Shown here: positions 648 through 58,946 of the stretch, in pieces
How the letters are laid out: the number at the start of each line of letters is the position of its first letter
Numbering within the stretch: the stretch's first letter is position 1
Assembly: GCA_038881895.1 (NCBI GenBank)
Contig: JAVZOV010000001.1
Coordinates: 496,001 to 560,000 of the forward strand
Length of the DNA stretch: 64,000 bases
Direction of reading: 5' to 3'
Source of the DNA: Thermoprotei archaeon
Lineage (GTDB): Archaea; Thermoproteota; Thermoprotei; Gearchaeales; WAQG01
Notes under the pieces: generated by a model
What the model was told of the DNA's origin: nothing
The model's database searches: none
What the model saw: the letters and a program-made list of their open reading frames with translations, nothing else
Position numbers and translations under genes: made by a program

Positions 648-1514
648 ATGCTTGGTTCAGTATTAGCAATAGCGATTGCGCTGGTTTGGGGCTTTTCAAC
701 TGTCCTTATTAGAAAGAATTTGACTGAGTCAAATTATTTTTCCGTTTCTCTAATTATTACCATTGTTGGTCTCATGGTTTTTGCACCTTTAGTTTTCCTC
801 TTCATTTCTTTGAATTCTGTTAACGTTTATGGTTTGTTATTCTTCTTCCTGGCTGGAATATTTCATCCTGGTTTTGTAAGACTTCTTTACTTTAAGGGTA
901 TGGAAAAAGTTGGTGCGTCAGTTAACGCGGCCATTTATGCTTCAAATCCCATTTTTAGTTCCTTAATTGCTGTCATTCTGTTAAATGAAAAATTAGAACT
1001 TATTGGTTGGATTGGTATTTTATGTGTTGTGTTAGGTGCCATTTTAATAGAAAATATAAACAGTGATCACCCTCAACCTAGCATAAGAAAAGGATTGGTT
1101 TACTCATTCTCAGCAGCTCTTCTTGTTGGTTTTTCTTATGTTGCCAGAAAGGAAGGTTTAATACTATGGGATTCTCCAATCATCGGTGCTACGATTAGTT
1201 ATATTGCAGCTTTACTCGTTTATAGTTGTGCCTTTCCTTTTCTCTCTAATAATGTAAATAACAGAACATTAAACAGATTAGCATTTAAATTGTTTTGGAA
1301 AGCTGGTGTTGGGATTAGCATTGGCCAGCTCCTATCTTTTTATGCACTTAAGTATAGTGATGTTTCAACTGTTGTACCATTGATACAAATAGAACCTCTC
1401 TTCATATTCCTGTTTATTCGTTATTATCTTAAAGGTATTGAAATTATATCACATAAACTTGTACTTGGCACGCTCATAATCATTTTAGGTGTTTTTCTTG
1501 TAATGTTATCATGA
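648..1514 (+). CDS. EamA/DMT-family membrane transporter
   Basis: The 288 residues form about ten hydrophobic helices in two similar halves, the usual plan and length of drug/metabolite transporter (EamA) permeases. A Pro-containing SNPIFSSLIAVILLNE segment near residue 100 and its counterpart VVPLIQIEPLFIFLFI near residue 245 are the hallmark half-repeat ends. The likely role is proton- or gradient-driven export or uptake of an amino acid or small metabolite; the substrate cannot be read. The ATG at 648 puts a hydrophobic helix first, as expected. It appears monocistronic, and a second EamA protein lies at 55253-56122. Confidence 0.85.
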   Translation: MLGSVLAIAIALVWGFSTVLIRKNLTESNYFSVSLIITIVGLMVFAPLVFLFISLNSVNVYGLLFFFLAGIFHPGFVRLLYFKGMEKVGASVNAAIYASNPIFSSLIAVILLNEKLELIGWIGILCVVLGAILIENINSDHPQPSIRKGLVYSFSAALLVGFSYVARKEGLILWDSPIIGATISYIAALLVYSCAFPFLSNNVNNRTLNRLAFKLFWKAGVGISIGQLLSFYALKYSDVSTVVPLIQIEPLFIFLFIRYYLKGIEIISHKLVLGTLIIILGVFLVMLS

Positions 1515-1938
1515 TTCTTGAAACTTAAAGATATCATGATTAATTTGTTCAAATATCCTAAAATATTAATCCAAAATAAGAAACACATTTTATTATCCTC
1601 TCACGTTAAAATCTATGAGCGTTTTAATACTTAGTTATCAACATCACAAATAGAAAAAATGCAATAATAACTTAAGGTAATAACCATTTATCTTTTATTG
1701 ATGTCCCACGCGATAAATTATTTGAGACTAAAATCATTCAATTAAAAGCAAAATGTTATGGTCATTGTTGAAAGATAAGTTGATGATAGTATGATATTAA
1801 CAAAAATTTAATATCATCTTTAAGTCTTTATACAATTGCTCTCTCTGAAGAAGCCAGATTTTCAGTTGTAAACGTTATTGAAAATTCTAAACGGAGATAA
1901 CGTTAATAGGTTTTGAGAGATATTTTAGTGTGATTATT
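1515..1938. other. Intergenic region with a perfect inverted repeat
   Basis: This is AT-rich, with no supportable gene on either strand. It holds a perfect 10-bp inverted repeat at 1791-1817 (ATGATATTAA, a 7-base spacer, then TTAATATCAT). The palindrome is 280 bases past the preceding stop and about 120 before the next start, so it suits an operator or RNA hairpin better than a terminator. Confidence 0.4.
1791..1817. repeat. Perfect 10-bp inverted repeat
   Basis: The arms ATGATATTAA (1791-1800) and TTAATATCAT (1808-1817) are exact reverse complements around a 7-base spacer. It is AT-only apart from one pair, so chance formation in this AT-rich gap is possible. Confidence 0.4.
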
Positions 1939-2541
1939 ATGGAATATTACACTTATGTTAATAGTCTGAAAGTAAGATTTTTAAACAAAGGTAAAGGCGA
2001 TCCTATAGTTCTTTTGCATGGATATAGTTTCAATGCAGATACTTGGGATGAAATAAACTTGGTGGAGTTTTTATCAGAAAGATATAATGTATATGCAATA
2101 GATATGCCGTATGGTCCAAAGAGCAGGTCAGATAAATTCATGGCTGAAAATCGTGATGAATATGCAGAATTCTTAAAGAATCTTTTCTCTAAACTTAATA
2201 TAGTGAAACCAATTCTGTTAGGTGCTTCTATAAGTGGTGAAGTTGTATTAAGATATCTTTCTAATAATTATGAAGCTACAGCTGGAATTGTCATAGGACC
2301 AGTTGGCATAAAGCTTCTTGTTAACAGACTAAATAAAATTAAGACTCCACTTTTGATCATATGGGGAGAGCATGATAATGTTGCATCTCTAGATGATGCA
2401 GAATTGTTAGCGTCTAATGTTAAAGGATCTGAGCTACATATTATTAAACATGCTGGACATGCATGCTATCTAGATAAACCTGAAGAATTTAAAAGCATTG
2501 TAATTGAATTTCTTGAAAAATATGTTCATAAAATTCATTAG
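1939..2541 (+). CDS. Small alpha/beta hydrolase
   Basis: This is a 200-residue alpha/beta-hydrolase-fold protein without a cap domain. Near the N-terminus, VLLHGYSF is the oxyanion-hole HG motif. GASISGE carries the nucleophile elbow (G-x-S-x-S/G), WGEHDNV holds the acid position, and HAGHACYLDKPEEF supplies the catalytic His. All triad elements are therefore visible. The likely activity is a soluble esterase, lipase-like or lactonase-like hydrolase; the substrate is not readable. The frame also opens at a GTG at 1930, but the ATG at 1939 starts right at the first conserved strand and was preferred. Its neighbours are unrelated. Confidence 0.85.
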   Translation: MEYYTYVNSLKVRFLNKGKGDPIVLLHGYSFNADTWDEINLVEFLSERYNVYAIDMPYGPKSRSDKFMAENRDEYAEFLKNLFSKLNIVKPILLGASISGEVVLRYLSNNYEATAGIVIGPVGIKLLVNRLNKIKTPLLIIWGEHDNVASLDDAELLASNVKGSELHIIKHAGHACYLDKPEEFKSIVIEFLEKYVHKIH

Positions 2542-2548
2542 GGATTGA

Positions 2549-2704
2549 TTAGTCAAGAGAAAATTCACTACTACATTTAGAACACTTAATGTAGGAACAG
2601 CTTAGATTTTCTGCTAAAACTGCACATCCACTACAGGATCTTGCTCTAGCATACATTATACTAAACCTAAAACCACAGAATGGACACTTAATCACTCTGC
2701 TCAT
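2549..2704 (-). CDS. 51-residue double CPxCG zinc-ribbon microprotein
   Basis: A short frame from ATG at 2704 encodes 51 residues. It has KCPFCGFRF near the start, a central SCSGCAVLAE segment and KCSKCSSEF near the end: two zinc knuckles flanking a third Cys pair. Small archaeal proteins with this layout (CPxCG ... ARA-x-x-C-x-GC ... KCPxC) are known, sometimes near metal-transport genes, but their function is not established. The repeated Cys pairs, which chance would not spare, make coding very likely. It is convergent with the hydrolase (7 bases between stops) and divergent from the recombinase-like operon, so it may share that promoter region. Confidence 0.75.
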   Translation of the reverse strand: MSRVIKCPFCGFRFSIMYARARSCSGCAVLAENLSCSYIKCSKCSSEFSLD

Positions 2705-2844
2705 ACTTGAAAGGAAAACTTAAGACTATTTATATTTTTTATTATTAAAAATTTATTATTAAAAATAGGGATAGGAATTAACAGAAAGGTAGGATTACGT
2801 TTATATTTTAGTTTAGGACTAAATGTCTATTAGAGGTGGATCTG

Positions 2845-3462
2845 ATGACTAATGCTGTGGCTTACATTGCTATTCATGATGAATCATTAATACAAAAAAT
2901 TCAACTTGAAGTGGAAAGTTTTGCAAAATTGCATGGGTTCAAGTTAGTTAATACGTTTATTGATTGTGATACACATATACCTATTCATAGAAGAGAAAAA
3001 TATAATGAAATGCTCACATTCATAAAAAATAATGGAATTGGTAACTTAATATTCCGCAGTCCATTAAATATTGGAAGAAGTTTTGAAGAAATCATCACAG
3101 AGATTAAAAAACTAATCAGTGAGAGCATTTTTATACATTTTTCTAAATACGAGGAGCTGAATTCTGAGCTAGAACAACTGTGTGTCGATACGAATAAAAG
3201 AAAGCTGTTTATTGAGGTTTTATCATGGTTTATGAAATTGCATAAATATGACCTAATAGAAAGAACACGTTATGGTCTAGAGAAAGTAAAACATAAAGGT
3301 GTAAAACTAGGAAGAAGACCAATTAAATTGCCATTATCAAGAATACGCGAATTATTATCAAAAGGGTTAACAAAAAAAGAGGTATGGAGGATATTGCGCA
3401 AAGAAGGATTAAAAATCAGTTATGGCAGATTTGTATCAAAATTATCTTCGCTAGGTGAATAA
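2845..3462 (+). CDS. Serine recombinase-like protein with lost active site
   Basis: The fold pattern is that of a small resolvase: an N-terminal alpha/beta domain, a long helix with ERTRYGLEKVKHKG, the GRRP hinge, and a C-terminal helix-turn-helix (LSRIRELLSKGLTKKEVWRIL). The catalytic motif Y-x-R-V-S reads YIAIHDES, so the nucleophilic Ser and its Arg are gone. The D-R pair of the L-D-R-x-x-R-S motif reads SPLNIGRS. Only the last Arg-Ser survives. It is therefore unlikely to cut DNA and more likely binds DNA as a regulator or structural protein. I chose the ATG at 2845 because GAGGTG lies six bases before it; a GTG at 2836 is also in frame. It is the first gene of an operon with the next two. 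Confidence 0.75.
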   Translation: MTNAVAYIAIHDESLIQKIQLEVESFAKLHGFKLVNTFIDCDTHIPIHRREKYNEMLTFIKNNGIGNLIFRSPLNIGRSFEEIITEIKKLISESIFIHFSKYEELNSELEQLCVDTNKRKLFIEVLSWFMKLHKYDLIERTRYGLEKVKHKGVKLGRRPIKLPLSRIRELLSKGLTKKEVWRILRKEGLKISYGRFVSKLSSLGE

Positions 3463-3463
3463 G

Positions 3464-3682
3464 ATGACTAAAATAATCTCTATAGAAGACGACATCAATG
3501 AGCATAAAGTTGAACAACTAAAGACGGAACTTATACGCGCTAGAATTAATGGAGAAAAAAGAATCGAAATTCATGTCTATTCCATAGAAGAACTAGACAA
3601 CATAATAGAAAAATTAAGAGGCATATTCATAAACAATATGCACCTAACTATTAAACTATACGTTCATAATCCAAGTTCATAA
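3464..3682 (+). CDS. 72-residue conserved-looking protein of unknown function
   Basis: I do not recognise the family. The protein is acidic and basic mixed, with a predicted beta-alpha-alpha-beta pattern (KIISIEDDI, a charged helix, KRIEIHVYSIEEL, a second helix, HLTIKLYVH), which suggests a small ferredoxin-like or ACT-like fold. The ATG at 3464 follows the stop of the recombinase-like gene by a single base, so the two are translationally coupled. The radical SAM gene follows 22 bases later. Coding is supported by this tight packing and by a composition like the neighbours. A GTG nine bases earlier is an alternative start. Confidence 0.6.
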   Translation: MTKIISIEDDINEHKVEQLKTELIRARINGEKRIEIHVYSIEELDNIIEKLRGIFINNMHLTIKLYVHNPSS

Positions 3683-3704
3683 AACAATTAAGGGGTGCAA
3701 CATT

Positions 3705-5264
3705 ATGGATAAAGGCAACGTAAAGTTTGATGTAATATTAACTACTGATAGGAGTATGATGACCAATCATCATGGAAAAGAGTTCTTAGGATTCATGACA
3801 ACAGGACCAGCACTAGGTATGCCAGAAGCTCTATGGATGTGGATTGCTGCACCTAAAATTAAAGTTGATAAGATTGGACGACCGTCAGAAGCTCCTTACG
3901 GTATGAGAAAAATAGAGGCAGTTTTAGTAGACAACGGAATTAATGCTGCAATAATAGATCCAGATTATTTGAAATACTATTTGAATGATGCTAAAGTTCT
4001 GATGTTGAGTCATCATGATTATTTTGCTCTAGGACCTCCCAGCTCAGAGTGGTGGTTCATTACAGGTAAAGAACCTGTCAACTTAAAAAGCTTCAAAAAA
4101 TTAATGGAAAAGAATGAAATAAAGCAAGCAAAAAAACATGGTCTTAAGATAATAGCAGGTGGACCAGCTGCATGGCAATGGCTTTTTAGAACTGATGCGT
4201 GGAAAAAATATGGCATAGATACTGTCTTTGATGGTGAAGGTGAAAAAATCATAACAGATCTAGTTCTTAAAGCTCTTAACGATGAAGAATTACCAGCATA
4301 CGTGTATGTTGGACCCGAAGACTCACCAAAAATTGAGGAAATACCAGTTATAAAAGCTCCATCGGTGAACGGGCTTGTGGAAGTCATGCGCGGATGTCCT
4401 AGATATTGTAGCTTTTGCTCAGTAACATTACGAAAACTTAGAATGATACCATTAGACGTCATAGAAAAAGAGATCATGATAAATGTTTCTCATGGAATAA
4501 AAGGAGGAATACTTCATTCGGAAGATGTACTCCTCTATGGTGCATACGGAATAATGCCAAGGGAAAAACCATTAATAAAACTTCATACCTTAGCAACGAA
4601 ATATTATAAAGGATTAGCATGGAGCCATATAGCATTGGCAACACTGCTCTCCGCGCAATATAATGGAAAAATTATAGATAAAATCATGGACATTATTTTT
4701 AGCAACACAGGACAAAAATTCATTGGAGTTGAAACTGGAATCGAGACAGGTTCTTCTAAGTTAGCATATAAGATAATGCCAGCCAAAGCAGCACCATTCA
4801 AGGTAGATATGTGGCCTGACTTAGTGGTAGAAGCATTCTCAATAATGCACGAACACAACATATTACCAGCCGCCACATTAATTTTAGGACTTCCAGGCGA
4901 AACCCCTGATGATGTAATCAAAACAGCTGAACTCATAGAACGATTAAGGCCATATCAAAGCCTAATAGTGCCGATGTTCTTTGTGCCATTAGGCATGTTA
5001 AAAGACAAAGATTGGTTCAGAAAGATCAGTTTAAGCACAGAACACACAGAAGTCTTAAAGCTAACACTAAAACACAGCCTTTACTGGTCACAAAGAATAA
5101 TAAACAAGTATCTAGATAAACCGCATGAACTACCATTACGATTAGCACTATATGGTTTCATGAAATATATAGAATGGAAAACTAAAAAATTCATAAACAT
5201 AATAGAAGAAAAACCAACGACCATAATTCAACAAGAAGTACAAACCATACATAACAATCTTTAA
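3705..5264 (+). CDS. B12-binding-type radical SAM protein
   Basis: This 519-residue protein has an N-terminal Rossmann-like region of the cobalamin-binding type (residues about 1-215, with KVLMLSHHDYFALG and KIIAGGPAAWQW strands). A radical SAM domain follows whose cluster motif is RGCPRYCSFCSV (Cys 231, 235, 238; C-x3-C-x2-C). Later strands include GVETGIETGS and a Gly-rich ATLILGLPGETPDD, typical of the MiaB/Elp3-like SAM barrel. No B12-ligating D-x-H-x-x-G is obvious, so cobalamin may be absent. It resembles an archaeal B12/radical SAM family (MJ_0865-like); the reaction is unknown. GGGGTG precedes the ATG. It is the last gene of the operon. Confidence 0.8.
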   Translation: MDKGNVKFDVILTTDRSMMTNHHGKEFLGFMTTGPALGMPEALWMWIAAPKIKVDKIGRPSEAPYGMRKIEAVLVDNGINAAIIDPDYLKYYLNDAKVLMLSHHDYFALGPPSSEWWFITGKEPVNLKSFKKLMEKNEIKQAKKHGLKIIAGGPAAWQWLFRTDAWKKYGIDTVFDGEGEKIITDLVLKALNDEELPAYVYVGPEDSPKIEEIPVIKAPSVNGLVEVMRGCPRYCSFCSVTLRKLRMIPLDVIEKEIMINVSHGIKGGILHSEDVLLYGAYGIMPREKPLIKLHTLATKYYKGLAWSHIALATLLSAQYNGKIIDKIMDIIFSNTGQKFIGVETGIETGSSKLAYKIMPAKAAPFKVDMWPDLVVEAFSIMHEHNILPAATLILGLPGETPDDVIKTAELIERLRPYQSLIVPMFFVPLGMLKDKDWFRKISLSTEHTEVLKLTLKHSLYWSQRIINKYLDKPHELPLRLALYGFMKYIEWKTKKFINIIEEKPTTIIQQEVQTIHNNL

Positions 5265-5382
5265 CATCTGCAATCCTAAATCACTGCAGCAAAATCATAC
5301 TACAAAACTGCTAAAATTTCTTCAAACCACCTTAAAGCAAAAATAAACATAAAAATAATGCATACCTTAAAGACCACATAAA

Positions 5383-5393
5383 TTTTATTTATA
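5383..5393 (+). promoter_or_regulatory. TATA-like box before the M20 peptidase
   Basis: TTTTATTTATA lies about 30 bases before the ATG at 5422, the archaeal promoter distance for a very short leader. A GGTG stretch seven bases before the ATG could act as a ribosome site. Confidence 0.4.
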
Positions 5394-5421
5394 AGAATTA
5401 TCTAATCAGTATGGTGAATTC

Positions 5422-6615
5422 ATGAATATCGAAGACTTAGAAATTATTTTAGCTAAAAAATATATAAGTATAAGAAGTATAACAGGTGAAGAACATGAAC
5501 TCAGCAAAGAAATACAAAAAGACCTTACCTCGTACGGTATAAGATCCGAAATAGATGAGTGGGATAACGTCATTGGAGTTATTGGTTCAGGAACTCCACC
5601 AATACTCGTGTTTAACGGGCATCTCGATACAGTCCCTCCAGTACCTGGATGGACTAAAAATCCTTTCAACGCTACTATAGAAGGTGATAAATTATACGGT
5701 CTTGGTTCTTCTGACATGAAAGGTAGCCTAGCATCAATGGTAGCATCAGTAATCGAACTATCTACGCACAAGTTTAATGGCACTATAATATTCACAGGTG
5801 TCGTTGGGGAGGAAAGCGGATCTGAGACATGGGGATCATTGCTAATAGCAAGTAGAGGTTTTTTAAGCAATAAAAAAATGGATTATATCATAGTCGGAGA
5901 AGGATCCGTAAGAGCAAATAAAATCATGGTTAGAATAGGACAACGAGGCTATGTAAGATTTAAAGTTGTATTAAAAGGCATTTCCGTACATAGTAGCGTT
6001 CCAACGGAGGGTGTAAATGCATTATATCGCTTAGCAGATTTTCTCAATGAAATAAGAAATTTAGATTACCATCTGAAATCAAGATACATTTCATCCATAA
6101 CATTTAACCCTTACATTAAAGGTACCATAACACCGACAATCGTAAAAGGAGGCCAGAAGCTCAATATTGTACCAGCTGAATGCGAAGTATACTTGGATAG
6201 AAGACTAATATATGGCGAAACTATTGATGAGGCTTACAATCAAGTAAAAAATATAATAAATCACCTAGACGAAACACATGCGAGCTCTTACCAAGTACCG
6301 AAAGAGATGATCCAATCACAAATAGAAATACTACACGGAAGGCCACCCTATCTAACAGATCTAAACGACCCACGCGGTCAAAAGCTAGTAAAAAGTGCAG
6401 AACAAGCCATATTAGAAGTCACTGGATCACATGCAGAAAAAATCTATGGCACAGGATACACAGATGCAGAGATTCTTAATTACTACACAAAAGCTCCTGC
6501 AGTAATTATAGGTGCAGGCGAGATGGGACACACCCCTGATGAATACGTAAGACTTAGCTTACTAAGGCAATTAAAAAAGATTTACATAGAACTTGCTCTT
6601 AAACTATTAGACTAA
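5422..6615 (+). CDS. M20-family metallopeptidase (ArgE/DapE-like)
   Basis: The 397-residue length and motifs fit the M20 dinuclear zinc amidohydrolases. VFNGHLDTVPPVPGW carries the first metal His and Asp; GLGSSDMKGSLASM has the bridging Asp; GVVGEESGSETWG has the catalytic Glu pair; IIVGEGS has the next ligand; and GAGEMGHTPDEYV supplies the last His. A dimerisation insert runs from about residue 180 to 290. The family deacylates N-acyl amino acids or cleaves dipeptides; ArgE, DapE, LysK and acylase types cannot be separated here. It is monocistronic with its own promoter and sits in a window rich in peptide catabolism genes. Confidence 0.85.
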   Translation: MNIEDLEIILAKKYISIRSITGEEHELSKEIQKDLTSYGIRSEIDEWDNVIGVIGSGTPPILVFNGHLDTVPPVPGWTKNPFNATIEGDKLYGLGSSDMKGSLASMVASVIELSTHKFNGTIIFTGVVGEESGSETWGSLLIASRGFLSNKKMDYIIVGEGSVRANKIMVRIGQRGYVRFKVVLKGISVHSSVPTEGVNALYRLADFLNEIRNLDYHLKSRYISSITFNPYIKGTITPTIVKGGQKLNIVPAECEVYLDRRLIYGETIDEAYNQVKNIINHLDETHASSYQVPKEMIQSQIEILHGRPPYLTDLNDPRGQKLVKSAEQAILEVTGSHAEKIYGTGYTDAEILNYYTKAPAVIIGAGEMGHTPDEYVRLSLLRQLKKIYIELALKLLD

Positions 6616-8204: not shown

Positions 8205-9170
8205 CTAAAAGTTACCGTTTTTGTTTTTTATTACTGCTGGTTCGTCAATTCTTAAAGTAGCATTAGTAGCATCTAATGTTGCCTTTACTCCTATCGGTAA
8301 TGTTATTTTATGTTCTCCATGACCACAACACAATCCATAGATCGCTGGGATATTTAATCTTCCTATCCTATCTTGAATGACTTCTTCTAAGCTAAAAGTG
8401 TGTTTAAGTTTATTTGATTCATAGTTCTTAAATTCACATACGATAACACCTGCAACATTGTCTAACTTTCCTGCAAGAATGAGTTGGGTTAACATTCTAT
8501 CAACTCTGTAGGGTGCTTCATTTGTATCCTCGATAAATAATATTTTTTCCTCTGTATTGATTTCGTATGGTGTTCCTAAAGTTGAAACTATCAGAGATAG
8601 ATTTCCACCGATAAGCCCTCCTTCTGCTTTTCCCTCATTTATTACACGTATAAGTGGTCCATCAATAGGATTAAAAATAATACCCAGTGGTTCATCATCC
8701 ATGAGTACTTTCATCATATTATATTTAGTATATTCTGATAGGTTATGCATGTCTGACGCTACCATCGGGCCATGAAATACTATTAACCCTGTTTTTTGAT
8801 GAATCGCTATAAGTAATGCAGTAATATCACTATATCCAATAAAAATTTTAGGATTGCGTTTTATTAAACTGTAATCCAATAACGGAAGTATCCGCATTGA
8901 ACCATACCCTCCTGATGCAGAAAATATGGCTTTTATTTTTTCGTTAGAGAACATCTCATTAATTTCATTAGCCCTTTCTTCATCTGAAGCAGAAAAATAA
9001 CCTTTGCTAATCAATCTTCTAACCGTTTTTCCTAAATATACTTCAAATCCTAAATCTTTTAACGTTCTTATACCTTTATTTAATTGAACAGGATCCGCCA
9101 CACCAGCTGGAGCCACTATACCTATCGCGTCACCTAGACCTATCGCACGAGGTTTAATTTTTAACACCAT
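8205..9170 (-). CDS. S66-family LD-carboxypeptidase / MccF-like protein
   Basis: A 321-residue protein of the S66 serine peptidase family. The N-terminal strand GIVAPAG, the nucleophile motif GYSDITALL (Ser 114), the Glu in LFIEDTNEAPYRVDRML, and the His in GHGEHKITLPIGV give the full Ser-Glu-His triad. Bacterial LdcA trims peptidoglycan and MccF hydrolyses microcin C7-like peptidyl adenylates. An archaeon has no murein, so an MccF-like detoxifying or dipeptide-cleaving role is more likely. The length is normal. It lies between DUF6062 (convergent) and the tRNA, with no operon partner. Confidence 0.85.
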   Translation of the reverse strand: MVLKIKPRAIGLGDAIGIVAPAGVADPVQLNKGIRTLKDLGFEVYLGKTVRRLISKGYFSASDEERANEINEMFSNEKIKAIFSASGGYGSMRILPLLDYSLIKRNPKIFIGYSDITALLIAIHQKTGLIVFHGPMVASDMHNLSEYTKYNMMKVLMDDEPLGIIFNPIDGPLIRVINEGKAEGGLIGGNLSLIVSTLGTPYEINTEEKILFIEDTNEAPYRVDRMLTQLILAGKLDNVAGVIVCEFKNYESNKLKHTFSLEEVIQDRIGRLNIPAIYGLCCGHGEHKITLPIGVKATLDATNATLRIDEPAVIKNKNGNF

Positions 9171-9270
9171 AACATATTAACTAAAATGATGCACCAAATA
9201 AAATTAGCGAAAAAAGTGTATTATCAATAAATAGAAACAAGACTGCATTAAAAAATAATAAGTAGTTCAA

Positions 9271-9280
9271 AGATTATATG
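9271..9280 (+). promoter_or_regulatory. TATA-like box for tRNA-Leu
   Basis: AGATTATATG lies 25-34 bases before the first base of the mature tRNA at 9305, the normal distance for an archaeal tRNA promoter. Confidence 0.4.
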
Positions 9281-9304
9281 TTTGTTTTTAGTAATTTATA
9301 TTAA

Positions 9305-9389
9305 GCGGGGGTGGCCGAGTCAGGTCAAAGGTGCAGGGCTCAGAACCCTGTGCGTTAGCGCTGCGTGGGTTCAAATCCCACCCCCCGCA
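9305..9389 (+). tRNA. tRNA-Leu (anticodon CAG)
   Basis: All arms fold. The acceptor is GCGGGGG (9305-9311) with CCCCCGC (9382-9388) and discriminator A. The anticodon stem is CAGGG/CCCTG around loop CTCAGAA, giving anticodon CAG. There is a long variable arm of class II type (TGCGTTAGCGCTGC) and a T arm GTGGG TTCAAAT CCCAC. The variable arm and anticodon both mark it as leucine. There is no intron and no encoded CCA. No integrase or direct repeat of the 3' end is seen nearby. Confidence 0.95.
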
Positions 9390-9428
9390 TAATGAAGATG
9401 CTGGGTTTTTCCGTTATTTAAAAGAAAA

Positions 9429-9438
9429 GTTTATAAGA
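9429..9438 (+). promoter_or_regulatory. TATA box for the peptide-binding protein operon
   Basis: GTTTATAAGA is centred about 29 bases before the ATG at 9463, which predicts a leaderless transcript for the first gene of this operon. Confidence 0.45.
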
Positions 9439-9462
9439 TTGTAATGTCATTGTATAGACACT

Positions 9463-11232
9463 ATGAATAAAAAACAGGTATTAGATTTTGTTGTGATAAT
9501 GTTTCTAGTGACAACTTTGACTGTTCCAATGATTCCGGCAGCATATGGTTCTCCTGCTGTATTAAGAATAGGTGTACCAGGTGAAATTGATAGTTTTAAT
9601 CCGCTTACTAGTATATTATCTGCTGCCCAATCTATCATAGGAGCTATGTATGAATCTATGCTTTTTCTGCATACTAATGGCTCATATTCTCCATGGCTTG
9701 CTACGGGATATTCTGTGAATGCATCTGCATTAACTGTTACCTTTACTTTAAGGAATAATGTTATGTGGCATGACGGTAAACCTTTTACTGCTAATGATGT
9801 TAAGTTTACATTTGATACTATAATTGCAAATCCAACTCTTGATAGAAATAAATATAGAGATTTCATAGCTTCTGTTGATGCACCTAATCCGAGTACTGTC
9901 GTATTTCATCTTAAGAAAGCGTGGGCTCCTGCCCTTTATTATTTAGGCACTCAATGGATAGTCCCGCAACATATATTTTCTGTAGTCAACATTACAGTGT
10001 TCAAAAATACTGATAACCCGATAGGTACTGGACCGTACAAGTTTGTAAAGTACACTCCTGGTGTTAGTGTAGAGCTTGAAGCTTTTAACAATTATTGGCA
10101 GGGTAAGCCTGCAGTAGATAAATTAGTCTATATACTTTATAAGACTACACAATCTATCATGCTTGATTTGATGGCTGGGAATTTGGATACATTTGCTGGC
10201 GCTACGGTTGATCCTGAACTGGTTGCTACTATGTTAAGGACACCGAATATTAAAGTTATTGTTAATCCTGGAAGCATAATAAGATTTATGGGATTTAATC
10301 TTAAGAGATATCCGTTTAATATAAGTGGTGTGAGGGAGGCAATAGCATATGCAATAAATAAGCAGGATATTGTTAATACTGTTATGTTGGGTTTTGCTGA
10401 ACCTGCACCAGATGGTTGGATTCCTCCATATTTAGGTTATTGGTATGATCAAAGTATTAAGTGGAGATCACAAAACTTCACAAAAGCAAATCAAATTTTA
10501 GATAATCTTGGTTTTGTTAAAGGATCTGATGGCATAAGAATAACACCTAAGGGACAAAGAATGTCTTATTCACTTCTCACCATAGCAGGTAGAGCTGAAT
10601 TTGTCAGAACTGCGGAGTTAATACAAGGTTGGTTAAAGAACATTGGAATAGAAATCAATGTTGAGACATTAAGCCTTGGGACTGTAGATCAAAGAGAGGG
10701 TGTAGGAGATTTTGATCTTGGTCTTATGGGACTAGGTGTTTCTCTTGAACCAGACTTTTATCTTTACCAAAGATTTCACAGTAGTGCTTCAGCTCCATTA
10801 GGAACCTATGTGCCAAGAAATTGGTTTAGATATGAGAATCCTGAGATGGATAAACTATTGGATGCTCAAAGAACAGAAATGAATATAACAAAAAGGCGAG
10901 AAATAATTTATAAAATACAGGAAATTGTAGCTCGCGATTTACCAATACTTACGCTTTATGCAAAATATAGTATACTAGCATATCGTACTGATAAGTTTGT
11001 AGGATTCAATGAACCTGATGGCCCGGCATCATTAATCTCTTTAGTTAATATAAAACCTATAGGTTACACACCAACAACCACTACAACAACTACAACCACT
11101 ACAACAACTACAACCACTACAACAACTACAACAGCCATAGCGCCCCAAGATTATACAACACTAGTAGCGGGAATTGTTATTGTAATAATAGTGATTGGCA
11201 TAATATACGTTCTAATTAGACACAGACGTTAA
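9463..11232 (+). CDS. Family 5 solute-binding protein (peptide/oligosaccharide), membrane-anchored
   Basis: This 589-residue extracellular binding protein of the SBP_bac_5 family starts with a signal helix ending near PAAYGS. The family body follows: GEIDSFNPLTS, VTFTLRNNVMWHDGKPFTANDVKFTFD, NPIGTGPYKFVKY, and a C-terminal IVARDLPILTLYAKYS segment. It ends with a run of about 25 Thr, a membrane helix and a basic tail, the archaeal way of tethering a binding protein outside the cell. It probably delivers peptides or sugars to the two permeases that follow. No ATPase gene is in this operon. Poly-Thr is encoded by an 18-bp period repeat. Confidence 0.9.
   Translation: MNKKQVLDFVVIMFLVTTLTVPMIPAAYGSPAVLRIGVPGEIDSFNPLTSILSAAQSIIGAMYESMLFLHTNGSYSPWLATGYSVNASALTVTFTLRNNVMWHDGKPFTANDVKFTFDTIIANPTLDRNKYRDFIASVDAPNPSTVVFHLKKAWAPALYYLGTQWIVPQHIFSVVNITVFKNTDNPIGTGPYKFVKYTPGVSVELEAFNNYWQGKPAVDKLVYILYKTTQSIMLDLMAGNLDTFAGATVDPELVATMLRTPNIKVIVNPGSIIRFMGFNLKRYPFNISGVREAIAYAINKQDIVNTVMLGFAEPAPDGWIPPYLGYWYDQSIKWRSQNFTKANQILDNLGFVKGSDGIRITPKGQRMSYSLLTIAGRAEFVRTAELIQGWLKNIGIEINVETLSLGTVDQREGVGDFDLGLMGLGVSLEPDFYLYQRFHSSASAPLGTYVPRNWFRYENPEMDKLLDAQRTEMNITKRREIIYKIQEIVARDLPILTLYAKYSILAYRTDKFVGFNEPDGPASLISLVNIKPIGYTPTTTTTTTTTTTTTTTTTTTTAIAPQDYTTLVAGIVIVIIVIGIIYVLIRHRR
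11076..11133 (+). repeat. Microsatellite encoding the poly-Thr stalk
   Basis: About three tandem units of 18 bases (ACAACCACTACAACAACT) encode only Thr and form the stalk between the binding domain and the membrane anchor. Length is likely to vary by slippage without breaking the frame in steps of 18. Confidence 0.6.
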
Positions 11233-47645: not shown

Positions 47646-47916
47646 TCAAAACAGTTAACTATGACAGACTTATATATGTTTAAACTCTATATAATTTTCC
47701 TCAAAAGATAAACACATGTTTCTATTTGACTTAAAATATCCGAACAAGATTGCTATCTTTAATGTGACAAATATCAATCAATATTAAATACAGAAAACTA
47801 ATCACATAGATTCCTCTGATTTTCTTAATAAATTGTTTAAATTGTTATCGTACTTTTGTATATGAAGAATAGGTTTAAATATGATATGTTGTATTTTGAT
47901 ATGATAGGTGATATAT

Positions 47917-49314
47917 GTGGAGACATTCGATCTTGTGATAATCGGCGGTGGTTCAGCAGCTTTTGCCGCAGCGATTAAGGCATCGGAGTTTGATGCGAGC
48001 GTAGCGATGATTGAACGAAGCACTATTGGTGGAACCTGTGTGAACGTCGGATGCGTGCCCAGCAAGCGCATGTTGAGGGTAGGAGAAGTCTATTACTATA
48101 GTGACTATAATTACAGTGGAATAGCTCTTGAACAAGGTGCACTAAATTTTGAAGCAATAGTAAGACAAAAAGATGACATCGTTCTCGATCTTAGAGCCAC
48201 GAAGTATTCTGATGTGCTTAAGAGTCTGTCTAACGCCACTCTCATTAAGGGATCAGCAAAATTCGTTTCAAAGGATCATATAGATGTGAATGGTCAAATA
48301 ATTCGAGGGAAGAAATTCATAGTTGCTACAGGTTCTTCACCAAGGATATTATCCATAGAGGGGATAAACAAGGTCGACTATCTCACGAATGTCGAAGCGC
48401 TCAGTCTTAGAGAGCTGCCCAAGTCAATGCTAATAATTGGTGGAAGAGCGCTGGCTTTAGAATTTGCTCAAATGTACGCTCACTTTGGAACTAACGTTAC
48501 AGTTCTCCAAAGAAGTCCAAGAATAATACCTAATGAGGAGCCGGAGATATCTGAGGCACTTAGAACATATCTCGAAGATGAGGGAATAGAAATCCATACT
48601 GGTGTTACCATCAAGAGAGTTCAGCAACGAAACGGGTCTAAGATCGTCATTGCTCAGATAGAGGGGAAAGAAAGGGATTTTGAAGCTGAGCAGCTCTTGA
48701 TAGCCACTGGTAGGATCCCAAACACCTCTAACTTGGGGTTAGAGAGGGTAGGAGTAAAATTAAGAGAGGATGGAGCAATACTTGTAAATGATGAAATGAG
48801 GACAACAGCTCCAAACATTTGGGCTGCAGGAGATGTAACAGGACAACCGATGCTCGAACCGGTCGCTGCAAAGGAGGGGGCAATAGCAGCTGAAAACGCT
48901 CTATCTAATGCTGGAAGAAAGATGGATTTCTCAGCTGTGCCCCATGCTATATTCACTACTCCTCAAGTTGCTAGCGTGGGTATGACAGAGGCCCAGGTAG
49001 TAGCACAAGGATACATATGCAATTGTAGAGTTCTTGATATGTCCCTTGTTCCTAAGGCGAAGATTATCGGTGATACGCGTGGTTTAATAAAGATGGTTAC
49101 AGATTACAAAACAGGACGTATACTTGGTGTTCACATACTATCATATGCAGCCGCTGAGATAATTCATGAAGCCGTCTTAGCAGTGAAATTTAAGCTTACG
49201 ATAGATGACATTATCGATACGGTCCATATCTTTCCCACAATGGCAGAGTCTATTAAACTGGCTGCTCTATCATTCAAGAAAGACATATCAAAAGTGAGCT
49301 GCTGTGTAGAGTGA
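47917..49314 (+). CDS. merA: Mercuric reductase-like flavoprotein
   Basis: This 465-residue pyridine nucleotide-disulfide oxidoreductase has an FAD-binding start LVIIGGGSAAFAAAI, the redox-active pair GGTCVNVGCVPSK (Cys 41 and 46), NAD(P)H-binding IIGGRALALEFAQMY, and GYICNCRVLDM. It also has the C-terminal vicinal Cys pair VSCCVE (462-463) that receives Hg(II) in MerA. The Cys pair separates it from dihydrolipoamide dehydrogenase. The N-terminal metal-binding domain of some MerA proteins is absent. The GTG at 47917 follows GGTGA by five bases and fixes the start. A TATA-like GGTTTAAATA lies about 40 bases upstream. No merR or mer transport genes are adjacent. Confidence 0.88.
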   Translation: METFDLVIIGGGSAAFAAAIKASEFDASVAMIERSTIGGTCVNVGCVPSKRMLRVGEVYYYSDYNYSGIALEQGALNFEAIVRQKDDIVLDLRATKYSDVLKSLSNATLIKGSAKFVSKDHIDVNGQIIRGKKFIVATGSSPRILSIEGINKVDYLTNVEALSLRELPKSMLIIGGRALALEFAQMYAHFGTNVTVLQRSPRIIPNEEPEISEALRTYLEDEGIEIHTGVTIKRVQQRNGSKIVIAQIEGKERDFEAEQLLIATGRIPNTSNLGLERVGVKLREDGAILVNDEMRTTAPNIWAAGDVTGQPMLEPVAAKEGAIAAENALSNAGRKMDFSAVPHAIFTTPQVASVGMTEAQVVAQGYICNCRVLDMSLVPKAKIIGDTRGLIKMVTDYKTGRILGVHILSYAAAEIIHEAVLAVKFKLTIDDIIDTVHIFPTMAESIKLAALSFKKDISKVSCCVE

Positions 49315-49507: not shown

Positions 49508-51085
49508 TTATTGTTTCAGTGGTATGAATATTCCTACCAGTGTTTTTAATCCATAGGTTTTTATTATGTTAATTATAAATACTAGATATCCTATGGCCAT
49601 TATTATTGCAAATGCTGTTCCGATGTACATGTACGGTAAGTACATTGATGTTCCAAAGTATAAGTCTCTTCTTAGCATGCCTGCTGTTCCAGCTAATCCT
49701 ACTGAGATTGCCATACCAACGCTTCCAATCATCCAAAGCCAGAAGTGAAGGTTACTAAGTTTTTCACTTATTAATCCTCTGCCTGTCAACATTGGTAGAA
49801 GCGTATAAATGACTGCAAATATTAAGCTACTTAATCCTGCTAGGAGCATCATATGAATGTGTATTCCAGCTATCCATTGTGTATTGTGTATTATCACGTT
49901 CAACCCGTAGTTTGCTTGTACAAGCCCTGCGAATCCTCCAAGTGCAAACCCAAAGATTGCTCCTAACATGAATTTTAATGACATGCTTGATTTTATGGGA
50001 CGCCCGAACCATAATGTTATTAATGCTGTGAAGAAACTGAGCCCCATTGTAAAGAATTCGCCCCATGTGATGAACTGTCCTGAAACTAATCTTAGCATCG
50101 CAGGTTGTGGTCTGTCAGAGAGTAGGTGATGACTCCATACTCCCATTGATACTATTAAATCTGCGAGTATTACATAGCGTACTACTCTTTCACCGTAAAG
50201 TGCTCGATTTGCCAATAATGGTGCTAATAAATATAATGTTCCTGCAGTCCAGATTAAAACATCACCATCAGCTATCATATCTAATCCCCACCAGTACCAA
50301 TTTTTATAAATAAGTGGATCAACAAATTGTGGATTTAAATATGTTCCCATAATAGCTGAAATACTGTAAATAAGGATTATTAATCCGGCTACTATTAGTA
50401 CTATTGAATTTATTACTGCATCTATTGAACCCCTCATGACAGATACTATGAAAACTGGAGGAGGTGGATCAGCTCCTGCACCATCCATGTTAGAAAGACG
50501 TTTCGTGTGTCTGATATGATTTAGAAGTCCAAGTAATGCATCGATCCCGAAAGCTGCGATGAGAAAGTTCCTAATAACTTTCTGTTCTCTTCTCTTGTGA
50601 GAAAATATTGTTGCGAAGATGTTAAATATGAAGAGCAGCACTGAAATCTCGATAAGCGCAACGCCTACAGAATAAGTTAATGCTCCTATTGGCTCAAACC
50701 TATTCCATGCTACAGGAAGCGGCCAGTAAAGTGTGTATAATGCTCCATAACGGAAGAAGAATCCGGCTGACCATGCTATTATTACTCCGGCAGTTTGCAT
50801 CCATAATCCGATCATTGCTATCTTTTTACTGTAAAGTTCTTTATTGAGTAGTTTTGGTACCAAGTAATAAAATGCTCCCATTACAGCTAAGTATGCCCAA
50901 CCGTAGATCCCAACTATAGGATGTGCTGTCATTACTGCAAAGTAATGATCATAAGATAAGAGTGGTATATTATCAAGCTCAACTCGCATCATCATTCCTT
51001 CTATGCCTGCTACTGCAAGAAAGAGTAATGCTATTATTTCATATCTAAGAGTGATTTTTTCTATTGGTAATGTTGATTGTGACAT
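49508..51085 (-). CDS. Heme-copper oxidase superfamily subunit I, divergent CuB site
   Basis: A 525-residue protein of about twelve helices. Heme ligands are in place: His 55 (MTAHPIVGIYGW), and His 409/411 in NTQWIAGIHIHMML. Two CuB ligands, His 319 and 320 (WSHHLLSDR), are present. The third CuB ligand and the crosslinked Tyr of oxidases (GHPEVY) are missing. WYWWGLDMIADGDV takes that place, with Asp 269 where nitric oxide reductases have the His of WWVVHLWVEG. This points to a nitric oxide reductase-type or other non-canonical member rather than an O2-reducing oxidase. It is transcribed after subunit II, the stop of which overlaps its start. Confidence 0.85.
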   Translation of the reverse strand: MSQSTLPIEKITLRYEIIALLFLAVAGIEGMMMRVELDNIPLLSYDHYFAVMTAHPIVGIYGWAYLAVMGAFYYLVPKLLNKELYSKKIAMIGLWMQTAGVIIAWSAGFFFRYGALYTLYWPLPVAWNRFEPIGALTYSVGVALIEISVLLFIFNIFATIFSHKRREQKVIRNFLIAAFGIDALLGLLNHIRHTKRLSNMDGAGADPPPPVFIVSVMRGSIDAVINSIVLIVAGLIILIYSISAIMGTYLNPQFVDPLIYKNWYWWGLDMIADGDVLIWTAGTLYLLAPLLANRALYGERVVRYVILADLIVSMGVWSHHLLSDRPQPAMLRLVSGQFITWGEFFTMGLSFFTALITLWFGRPIKSSMSLKFMLGAIFGFALGGFAGLVQANYGLNVIIHNTQWIAGIHIHMMLLAGLSSLIFAVIYTLLPMLTGRGLISEKLSNLHFWLWMIGSVGMAISVGLAGTAGMLRRDLYFGTSMYLPYMYIGTAFAIIMAIGYLVFIINIIKTYGLKTLVGIFIPLKQ

Positions 51086-51639
51086 TATGGTACCACCTCT
51101 ATTGCATTAGGGAGAACCATGTAAGGATGTTCTGGTCCTGAGTATTCGGTTGATCTTATTGTATAGTTTCCTGGTTCGTTAAAAATCCATATTATACTAT
51201 TGTTATACCATGGAATGACTTGCATCTGAAAGACCATACTTCCATCATTTCGAAAAACTCCAAAACCATACGTTACGTCTTTAGACGTCACTATGAATTC
51301 TACAGGCTCATTGACTTTAATTGTCATAGGATTGCTAGGTAAGTAAAACGTATAATTGTTCATTGTTATGTAAAATATTTTTGTAGGTTTTGCTGATGCC
51401 CACGGCAGTAACCATTTTTGCCATGGTAATAATGTTAGTGTTATTATGTTAAAAATGAGAAACACAATTACTAAGAATACTAACCACTCTTTTTCCTCTT
51501 TTCCCATCCCACCATGCTCTCCTCCATTGAGACTTTTTTGTCTTGGTTTTGTAAGTTTTATTGCAAAGATCACGAAAAATGTTAATACGGCGAAGAAATA
51601 AGCTCCATAAGCTAGTTCTATGATTTGCTGAATATACAT
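51085..51639 (-). CDS. Heme-copper oxidase subunit II-like cupredoxin lacking CuA ligands
   Basis: The 184-residue protein has two membrane helices (residues 8-28 and 52-72) and a C-terminal cupredoxin domain, the standard subunit II plan. The CuA loop is readable but stripped: where the family has C-x-E-x-C-G-x-x-H-x-x-M it has S-T-E-Y-S-G-P-E-H-P-Y-M (Ser 163 and 167 for both Cys). The upstream His of D-V-x-H-G-F reads DVTYGFG. CuA cannot form, so it cannot take electrons from cytochrome c or cupredoxin in the usual way; a quinol-linked complex is likely. GGTGA before the ATG fixes the start. Confidence 0.85.
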   Translation of the reverse strand: MYIQQIIELAYGAYFFAVLTFFVIFAIKLTKPRQKSLNGGEHGGMGKEEKEWLVFLVIVFLIFNIITLTLLPWQKWLLPWASAKPTKIFYITMNNYTFYLPSNPMTIKVNEPVEFIVTSKDVTYGFGVFRNDGSMVFQMQVIPWYNNSIIWIFNEPGNYTIRSTEYSGPEHPYMVLPNAIEVVP

Positions 51640-51704: not shown

Positions 51705-51738
51705 TAAATATAAATAGTTGTTAACAAGTATATTTATT

Positions 51739-52437
51739 ATGAAACATAAACTTTTAACGATAAATATAAAACCGGAGAAGGTTTCTCTAGCATATCAGTT
51801 AGAAAAATATGATACTAAAGCTAGGCTACTTGGTTGTAAGCTTGTTAGAGGTTATAAGGCTCTTCTTATGATAGAAATTATTCATGATGACAATTATAAA
51901 AAATTGATCTCCTCATTAAAGAATGCATTAGGTAAAAGAAATGTCATTGTAGTGAATGAAAATGATTCAAGATCGTTTTTAATAACTACATTGAAGCATC
52001 GTGCTATACATGATGCCGTCAGCAAGTCAAAAACTTTCTGTATAACTTGTCCTTTTATAACACCGTCAAGACCTGACGGTTATGTATCGTGGACTGTGTT
52101 AGTACCTTCATCAGAATCAGCAAAGAATTTTATTAAAATTCTTGAGCAAAGAAATGTTGAGGTAAAGAGTGTTAGCTCAAATAAGATAGCAGTTAACCCA
52201 CTTACTGCAAGAGAATTTGAAATTTTAAGAACAGCTTATAATTTAGGATACTATGATTATCCAAGATTAATTAGTTTTAACGAATTAGCTAAAAAGTTAG
52301 GTATTGTCCCATCCACGCTTTCAGAAGAACTGCGGAAAGCTGAAAAAAAGGTTATAACAATCTATATGAGAAATCTCCTTAAACCTCTTTCAATTACCTC
52401 ATTCCATGAAAATAGGTTTACAACCTCAGCATACTGA
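51739..52437 (+). CDS. HTH_10 (bacterio-opsin activator-type) regulator
   Basis: A 232-residue regulator. The C-terminal region NPLTAREFEILRTAYNLGYYDYPRLISFNELAKKLGIVPSTLSEELRKAEKKVI matches the archaeal HTH_10 domain (L-T-x-x-Q-x-x-x-L-x-x-A-Y-x-x-G-Y-x-x-x-P-R). The N-terminal 150 residues form an alpha/beta sensor with two Cys (FCITCPF) that could bind metal, heme or sense redox. The ATG at 51739 was preferred over a TTG at 51718. It is divergent from the oxidase-like operon across a perfect palindrome, so control of that operon, and of itself, is likely. Confidence 0.85.
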   Translation: MKHKLLTINIKPEKVSLAYQLEKYDTKARLLGCKLVRGYKALLMIEIIHDDNYKKLISSLKNALGKRNVIVVNENDSRSFLITTLKHRAIHDAVSKSKTFCITCPFITPSRPDGYVSWTVLVPSSESAKNFIKILEQRNVEVKSVSSNKIAVNPLTAREFEILRTAYNLGYYDYPRLISFNELAKKLGIVPSTLSEELRKAEKKVITIYMRNLLKPLSITSFHENRFTTSAY

Positions 52438-57075: not shown

Positions 57076-57114
57076 AACTAAATATGGATATGTATGGATT
57101 CCATACTTAGTTCT
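57076..57114 (-). ncRNA. Right-end hairpin, probable 3' part of the TnpB guide RNA
   Basis: Arms GAACTAA (57076-57082) and TTAGTTC (57108-57114) enclose GTATGGA/TCCATAC (57093-57099 and 57101-57107), a nested hairpin over the last codons and stop of tnpB. In TnpB systems the omega RNA is made from this region and its guide is the flank just outside. A diverged copy of this block stands alone at 34318-34361. RNA production is inferred from the family, not seen. Confidence 0.5.
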
Positions 57115-58295
57115 TGAGCCTCATCCCTCTTGTCCTCCTCTGGGTTCATTGGAGGGCTCATCGAGCTCTGCTCCTTTCGGGGGGAACCCATGAATCCCCA
57201 CATCCTAAGGAACGTTTTCCAAATGTTTATTGATGCATTCCTCTGCCTATCGATTATAAAACCACATTTTGGGCACTTGAAGACTGCTCCCCTTAGGTCT
57301 TTATTATAGTACCCGCATTTGGAGCAGGTTTTTGATGTACCATAAGCCTTAACAAATACTGTCGTGTGTCCATTCCATGCAGACTTATAATCTACGTACT
57401 TTTGGAGCTTTATATAGTCGTGCTTGCTGTTCTGCCTATTCATACTTCTACTCTTCGTCCTAGCCACCCTCTCCTTGAAGTTCGTCAAGTCCTCGAAGAT
57501 ATTTGTCCTGTTGGATAGCTGCTTAGCCAGCTTGTGTAATACATCGTTAACCCTGTTTTTCTCCCTTGAACCGTACTTCTTCAGGAGCTTCTTCCTCGTT
57601 TTTCCGTGTAGCTTCTGGATGACCCTTCTCTTCAGCTCGTACGTTCTATGAATTGTGTAGATTTCCTTCAGGCTTATCGAATAGTGGTCTTCACCATCAA
57701 AGCCGTCCAAAGTTAAGAGGTTCGTGTCCCATGCTATTGGGTCTTTAATCTTTAGCTCCACCTCTCTTCTAACAGTAACTATGAACCTGTCCTGTTTAAG
57801 TATGAGTTCGCCGAGCTCCAATCCCCTTATCCTATCCCAACACCACGCCTTCCTCAAATCTATGGTTATACTCTCTTTGTAAGGTCTTACCGAAATCCTG
57901 AGAACCCCATCCCTGTAACTGTAGAGGGTTTCCTTAACTCTAACGAACTTCCTCTTCAACTCAGGCTTTCTTCTTCCGGCCCGCCCACGAAGGTACCTCT
58001 TCCTCCACGATTCAAGTACGGAATAGGCCTGTTTTATCGCGGAGTCCACGTAATGCTTAGAGTAAACCCATCCTCTGAGGTGCTTGTCTCTAAGCTTTTT
58101 CCTAAAAGCCTTATCTTTCCTCAGAAACGGTATAAGCCTCTTCCCATTCCTATTCCATGCAATGTTCCTCCATAAATCTTCCAAGATAGCGTTTAAGACG
58201 CTCATGTAGTCCTCTATGAGCTCGTTCACCTCAAGATCATGCGGTATCGAGTATGCTTTAACCAACAAGGTTCCTGACACCTTCAACAACCTCAT
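57078..58295 (-). CDS. tnpB: TnpB RNA-guided nuclease of the IS607 element
   Basis: The 405-residue TnpB is complete. The RuvC residues are Asp 190 ([11 protein letters not shown]), Glu 268 (NIFEDLTNF) and Asp 349 ([14 protein letters not shown]). The zinc finger has CSKCG (324, 327) and CPKCG (341, 344). The N-terminal 180 residues hold the wedge/REC-like part with the basic [17 protein letters not shown]. All catalytic residues are present, so it should be active as an RNA-guided DNA endonuclease that helps retain the element. The ATG at 58295 overlaps the end of tnpA by 38 bases in another frame. Confidence 0.92.
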
Positions 58296-58866
58296 TATAC
58301 TTATGGCTTCTCATTCCGTAGAGCTTTCCAGCGAAATGAGCAACTATGGTGATTAAGTCTTCCACAAGCTCTTCATGAGGAGTCTTCTTTTCATGGTTTA
58401 TCACTTCTATTTCTGTTCCGAAAACCGAGAACATCTTTCTGAGTGTTTCAAAACCAAACCTCGTGAGCCTGTCTTCGTAAGCGATTATCAGCTTGGATAT
58501 TTTCCTTTCTGAAACTATGTCTAAGAGCTTCAGGAATTTTTTTCTGTTTTCGTTAAGCCCAGAACCAACATCCGTTAAAACTTGAATTTCACCGTAACCT
58601 TTCTCCTTAGCGTAGCTTGAAATGAGCTGTTTCTGCCTTTCAAGGTCATCCTTTTGTGTTGGAGATGAAACCCTTGCATACCCTACAATAATTCTTTCCT
58701 CTCTTAAACCAAGGATGCGTTTTATTTCGCTCTCGGGGATCCTCCTACGTCCTCCAAGTGTTCTAACACACCTAATCTTGCCCTGCCTATCCCATTGCTG
58801 AATAGTCCAGGTGGTGACTCCAAGAAGCTTCTTCGCCTCTTTGATTGTATAGAGCTTTTCAGACAT
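58258..58866 (-). CDS. tnpA: IS607 TnpA serine transposase
   Basis: A 202-residue serine recombinase of the IS607 type with its DNA-binding domain first: a MerR-like helix-turn-helix [27 protein letters not shown]. The catalytic domain follows, with [10 protein letters not shown] (nucleophile Ser 67, Arg 65) and the D-R-x-x-R motif in [13 protein letters not shown]. All active-site residues are present. The ATG at 58866 directly precedes the HTH; the frame opens 12 codons further up. It overlaps tnpB, the usual IS607 layout, and moves the element through a circular intermediate. Confidence 0.92.
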
Positions 58867-58946
58867 CAATATTCTCCTATATCTACCAATATTTAAACAC
58901 ATCTATTCTGAAACCGCTGAAAGAGGCAAGTCGTAGAGGAGAAAAG

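Follow-up and report, generated by a model that had tools for sequence, protein, structure and literature searches.

The two overlapping genes described here probably encode a two-subunit membrane quinol:nitric oxide oxidoreductase, whose metal site would be made up of two His and two Asp together with a Glu. They lie in a stretch of 64,000 nucleotides which is called the window throughout. As read from the sequences, the evidence suggests the reduction of nitric oxide (NO) to the greenhouse gas N2O with electrons from membrane quinol and not the reduction of O2; the missing active-site Tyr and the carboxylate-rich site are in keeping with NO reduction and not with O2 cleavage.

Locus, annotation and neighbouring genes

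Both open reading frames were confirmed. They overlap by one base, with subunit II coming first and subunit I following, and a regulator gene lies beside them:

49508..51085, minus strand: subunit I, catalytic, 525 aa; heme-copper oxidoreductase fold, COX1 family
51085..51639, minus strand: subunit II, 184 aa; cupredoxin domain without CuA ligands
51718..52437, plus strand: HTH_10 regulator with a CxxC motif, divergently transcribed; Pfam HTH_10 at 6.5e-22

Subunit I matched Pfam COX1 with 215.7 bits (cut-off 34.8) and has the features of the heme-copper oxidoreductase (HCO) superfamily, namely the COX1 fold, the heme His (H and HxH) and the HH pair, while none of the NCBIfam oxidase equivalogs came near its cut-off, the best being CtaD_CoxA with 127.5 bits against 670.75. 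In the case of subunit II, the NCBIfam matches were CoxB (1.1e-9) and SoxA (5e-9), and a profile search against the PDB retrieved subunit II of ba3 and bo3; by its sequence this protein groups with the CyoA and SoxA-type subunits.

The HTH_10 protein is probably the regulator of the operon. A homologue adjoins the operon in 11 of the 19 loci, either divergent or co-directional, and the CxxC motif is present in several of them. Since a similar regulator flanks the bd operon of the same genome, its presence would mark respiratory control and not NO, and it was therefore downgraded as NO-specific evidence. In four closely related loci (L005, at 8762-9760, L006, L007 and L008), a ferritin-like/rubrerythrin-like protein and a Fur-family regulator adjoin the operon. 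The window also encodes, at 47908-49314 on the plus strand, a pyridine-nucleotide disulfide oxidoreductase with a C-terminal SCCVE which resembles mercuric reductase, and serine recombinase and TnpB-like proteins (IS607-like) are found both in the window (57078-58902) and elsewhere in the genome (L126, 8940-12678; L127, 8743-9954).

Family, phylogeny and selection

Named Thermoproteota MAGs contain homologues with 47–63% identity, as do Ca. Hecatella orcuttiae, whose record places it in Ca. Bathyarchaeota, and one Anaerolineae (Chloroflexota) contig, whose neighbouring genes look bacterial. The gene was present in 12 further genomes of the same phylum (398 searched). No closer relative was obtained by tblastn against plasmids, where the best listed match had 25% identity over the full length, or by search among viral contigs. 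In the tree, the 19 sequences formed one clade with 100/100 support and a long branch, the sister group of which was unsupported. This clade stands apart from cNOR, qNOR and cbb3, and thus from NorB/NorZ, on the A/B (oxygen reductase) side of the superfamily.

Nine residues of subunit I (H55, H319, H320, H409 and H411 together with D269, D273, E343 and E29) are invariant in 19/19 sequences, which come from several archaeal families and the Chloroflexota contig, and pairwise dN/dS values of 0.02–0.08 across the family denote purifying selection. Consequently, D269 is neither a chance substitution nor a sequencing error, being invariant here whereas the 38 other HCOs all have His. The same data bear on the possibility of a degenerate paralogue without catalytic activity, retained because it assists assembly or binds heme, an idea which the combined loss of a canonical CuB ligand, the Tyr and CuA might bring to mind. 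This is highly improbable, given that the replacements are invariant over distant lineages under such dN/dS values, that all the heme ligands are retained and that in several genomes (G065, G105, G153, G260 and G313) subunit I is the only PF00115 match over the cut-off.

Metal site of subunit I

Helix VI of subunit I reads WWGLD269MIAD273G, with Asp at the positions of both the first CuB His and the oxidase Tyr. The residues of the site are the following:

50279..50281, minus strand: D269, Asp at the first CuB His position; 19/19 members, against His in 38/38 HCOs outside the family, placed by the register test
50267..50269, minus strand: D273, Asp at the oxidase Tyr / cNOR Glu211 position; 19/19 in the family, 30 Tyr, 6 Glu and 2 Gly in the 38 others
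50126..50131, minus strand: H319 and H320, second and third CuB/FeB His; invariant
50921..50923, minus strand: H55, low-spin heme ligand; invariant
49853..49861, minus strand: H409 and H411, high-spin and low-spin heme ligands; invariant in the family
50057..50059, minus strand: E343, aligned with cNOR Glu280 (STLE motif); 19/19 in the family

To assess the register of helix VI, 18 family sequences were compared with 35 references at a series of offsets. Among the 17 offsets tried, offset zero was the best both against oxidases and against nitric oxide reductases (NORs), and at the best register the mean BLOSUM62 score was 0.36 to NORs versus -0.05 to oxidases. A richer alignment, to which a third HCO type had been added, aligned D269 with His and D273 with Tyr or Glu, and the AlphaFold2 model of subunit I built from 37 sequences (pLDDT 90.0, pTM 0.91) has a single continuous helix from 257 to 292. 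All three approaches give helix VI without a gap, so that in this protein Asp takes the place of both the His and the Tyr of the oxidase pair. A first MAFFT alignment, with a 6-residue gap in helix VI that left D269 unaligned, was rejected on the basis of the offset test, the richer alignment and the pLDDT-90 model, which itself replaced a first structure model (16 sequences, pLDDT 76) that was too weak in the active site. D275 was also discarded as the equivalent of the first CuB His, as it is Asn in many members. The five His and D269 listed in the initial annotation were all present, and its assignment of D269 to the first CuB His position held with respect to register, helix continuity and invariance; its reading of helix VI nevertheless overlooked the second Asp, D273.

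The resemblance to nitric oxide reductases extends beyond register. The helix VI motif WWGLDMIADG mirrors the WWxxHxxxEG of cNOR, and E343 aligns both with the Glu of the cNOR STLE motif, which lies 21 residues past the HH pair and is Glu280, and with its qNOR counterpart; outside the family, Glu at this position is confined to the 3 c/qNORs among the 38 HCOs compared. It has been reported that cNOR depends critically on both Glu211 and Glu280 for its activity and for taking up protons (PMC3431322), and the coordination of FeB varies between NOR subfamilies (PMC10256718). In subunit I, the non-heme metal is probably iron (FeB). In addition, all the family members shown have a single-residue insertion immediately before the proximal heme His, H409 (GIHIH versus GHFH in other HCOs).

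Oxygen reductases of the A, B and C types have three CuB His and an active-site Tyr, the latter being needed for O-O cleavage, and in 19/19 members these positions show D269 and D273 instead. It is unlikely, therefore, that the pair is a quinol-linked O2 reductase, or a peroxide/O2 scavenger, with an unusual CuB site able to work without Tyr: the residue that cleaves O-O is absent throughout and a His-Tyr pair is impossible, most carriers have an A-type or bd oxidase in any case, and the Tyr-less relatives on the B side (eNOR, sNOR, gNOR and bNOR) have been assigned to NO reduction (PMC8756737, PMC11388526). Such an enzyme would, nevertheless, account for the position of the clade on the oxygen reductase side of the tree and for the Foldseek search with the subunit I model, in which aa3 and bo3 oxidases were the nearest solved structures (TM about 0.8). 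Moreover, several carriers have other O2 reductases and hence meet O2, and the ferritin-like/rubrerythrin-like and Fur-family neighbours of the four related loci are of the kind seen in oxidative stress.

Electron donor

The positions relevant to electron entry are found in both subunits:

50999..51001, minus strand: E29, carboxylate at the E. coli CyoB D75 position; 19/19 in the family, Asp in CyoB and four other archaeal HCOs
50945..50947, minus strand: H47, aligned with E. coli CyoB H98; 18/19 in the family, His in 1/38 others (CyoB)
51118..51153, minus strand: former CuA loop STEYSGPEHPYM, with Ser163 and Ser167 replacing both Cys; conserved in 18 family members
51268..51270, minus strand: Y124, replacing the first CuA His; Tyr in 15 members of set A2, His in L031

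D75 and H98 of CyoB are known quinol-site residues of the E. coli bo3 oxidase. The counterparts of the subunit II loop are SASYSGPGFSGM in CyoA and CTEYCGFRHSEM in the family member L031, and the stretch Ser..Ser-Gly-Pro is common to the loop studied here (STEYSGP) and to that of E. coli CyoA (SASYSGP). The CuA ligands of cytochrome-c-type A/B oxidases are thus replaced by S163, S167 and Y124. With Y124, S163, E165, S167, G168, H171 and M174 all in place, subunit II is as the initial annotation had described it, that is, with Ser at both Cys positions, Tyr at the first His, and the Glu, Gly, His and Met retained.

Homologues sharing the Asp and a Ser/Ser subunit II, the combination first pointed out there, do exist, D269 being found in 19/19 members and the Ser/Ser/Tyr pattern in 18 subunit II sequences. 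The description of subunit II as CuA-less applies to these 18, but it is not fixed in the family, since the exception, L031, retains every CuA ligand (HGF...CTEYCGFRHSEM) in its orthologue of subunit II, which is 47–54% identical to the others tested, yet L031 keeps E29 and H47 in subunit I. This implies that electron entry has changed within the family. When a single CuA loss with L031 outermost was evaluated, the AU test gave a p of 0.057.

Genome context

The genome to which the window belongs encodes an A-type fused oxidase, cytochrome bd and a copper nitrite reductase (NirK) of 368 aa, which contains the ligands expected of type 1 and type 2 copper and matches at 2.6e-62 a copper nitrite reductase of solved structure in the PDB (3wia). 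This archaeal NirK-type protein, encoded in locus L107 (937-2043, minus strand; C1, about 390 kb), has a C-terminal tail resembling a membrane anchor. As for the other carriers, a cd1 NirS (6e-100) was found in G313, the genome of the CuA-bearing L031, NirK-like proteins in G079, G117 and G218 (that of G117 matching a NirK structure at 1.4e-139) and NosZ-like proteins in G072, G117, G171 and G230, the NirK and NosZ matches scoring under the curated cut-offs of NCBIfam. A NosZ-like protein is encoded by 4/13 carriers versus 4/385 non-carriers (Fisher p 4.5e-5), and NirK or NosZ outside ammonia oxidisers distinguishes carriers from the others with a p of 3e-7, values which ignore kinship and assume one common 398-genome draw across the counts. 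The association with NirK is partly a matter of lineage, since NirK is also common in the non-carriers of family f39. In G072, G171 and G230, all the other HCOs are canonical HPEVY oxidases, which leaves subunit I as the only HCO candidate for the NO-reducing step.

No nir or nos genes adjoin the operon in the loci read, and 5 of the 13 carriers have no NirK, NirS or NosZ. These five all possess cytochrome bd, subunit I (split into two in G129) being the only protein in each to exceed the PF00115 cut-off, and a role in NO detoxification would fit them. They could also be taken, together with a metal site that has no exact counterpart among the HCO references tested, to favour a different small substrate (NO dismutation, hydroxylamine or sulfur species), or mainly gas sensing or scavenging, through the same quinol route. 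We consider this quite improbable, as E343 and D273 match the NOR carboxylates and denitrification genes are enriched in carriers.

Other unusual redox proteins were observed in these genomes. In locus L125 of G313 (1442-3211 and 3589-5517), the cd1 nitrite reductase has a fused N-terminal CuA-like cupredoxin (FECAIFCGVEHPNM), and it is followed by a membrane polyferredoxin-like protein with a CuA-like loop of its own (CATPCGPLHPFM). A second odd HCO type is present in G117 and G218 (L120, 953-2431; L122, 959-2431; L121, 936-2507; all on the plus strand), with the helix VI motif WxWAHNLMEAMG, in which the CuB His is kept and a NOR-like Glu occupies the Tyr position. It has the HH pair, Met in place of a low-spin heme His (HxH to HLM) and a subunit II with CuA (CLEYCGDGHAAM / CLEFCGDGHSAM), and may represent another NOR type.

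Comparison with known systems and proposed mechanism

Judged by its published description, gNOR (NorGH) is the closest described family. This non-canonical NO reductase of Sulfurimonas, Sulfurovum, Persephonella and Ca. Methylomirabilis has two subunits, with a cupredoxin subunit II (PMC8756737), is quinone-oxidising (PMC8906906) and carries an Asp at the oxidase-Tyr/NOR-Glu position (PMC8756737 Table A4). The same helix VI position is Asp in the present family (D273, 19/19), and quinol may likewise be the donor in all members but L031. The gNOR Asp mentioned in the initial annotation corresponds, as published, to D273 and not to D269. The hosts also differ, being here Thermoproteota and one Chloroflexota MAG, and L031 keeps CuA. 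Other NORs of the B side (eNOR, sNOR and bNOR) are likewise two-subunit HCOs with a cupredoxin subunit II and a replaced Tyr, but the replacement is Gln in eNOR and Asn in sNOR/CuANOR (PMC8756737 Table A4), in contrast to the Asp found here.

With cNOR (NorBC) and qNOR (NorZ), the family shares the carboxylate at the Glu211 position, the Glu280 equivalent and a WWxx[H/D]xxx[E/D]G helix VI, and with qNOR, presumably, the quinol donor. Unlike those enzymes, which have three His and a Glu at FeB, it has two His and two Asp, the first His being Asp, with a Glu at the Glu280 position; it is devoid of heme c or a NorC-like part and belongs to the A/B side of the tree. The bo3 oxidase (CyoAB) resembles it in the Ser..Ser-Gly-Pro of the former CuA loop and in having an acidic residue and a His at the quinol-site positions, but possesses three CuB His, the cross-linked Tyr and the K-channel Lys, where the family has two His, two Asp and Thr or Ser at the Lys position.

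The proposal of a quinol-linked nitric oxide reductase, and not a standard oxidase, had been put forward in the initial annotation; its core is independently strengthened by E343, by E29/H47, by the Ser-Ser loop and by the NirK, NirS and NosZ of carrier genomes, and as a whole it can be regarded as partly supported. In such an enzyme, quinol would be oxidised near E29/H47 in subunit I, and the electrons would travel by way of the low-spin heme (H55/H411) and reach the high-spin heme (H409) and the non-heme metal. The latter would be held by H319, H320, D269 and D273, with E343 as a second-shell acid, and two NO molecules would bind at the heme/non-heme metal site to yield N2O and H2O. Its role may be to remove or respire NO, whether this is formed by the cell's own NirK or NirS or comes from neighbours.

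Significance

Should the pair be an NO reductase, it would have been missed by denitrification surveys, since enzymes of this kind are usually annotated as coxA, as described for bNOR and sNOR (PMC11388526). It would also supply the NO-to-N2O step in three nosZ-bearing archaeal genomes with no other HCO candidate NOR, and would extend the N2O-making enzymes of Thermoproteota and Chloroflexota. The site offers a mechanistic test of whether a heme/non-heme metal centre can work with carboxylates replacing His and Tyr, and the CuA-bearing L031 allows a direct comparison of CuA with quinol electron entry. Were the first CuB His of gNOR to be replaced by Asp as well, the present proteins would be a new archaeal gNOR branch; otherwise, they would constitute a new family. 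It is possible, though rather doubtful, that they form an archaeal NOR family distinct from gNOR, with a binuclear site in which iron is bound by two His and two Asp, backed by a second-shell Glu, where other enzymes use three His, and with an electron entry that has switched between CuA and quinol. In that case, the family would itself be a natural series showing how oxygen reductases give rise to NORs and quinol oxidases.
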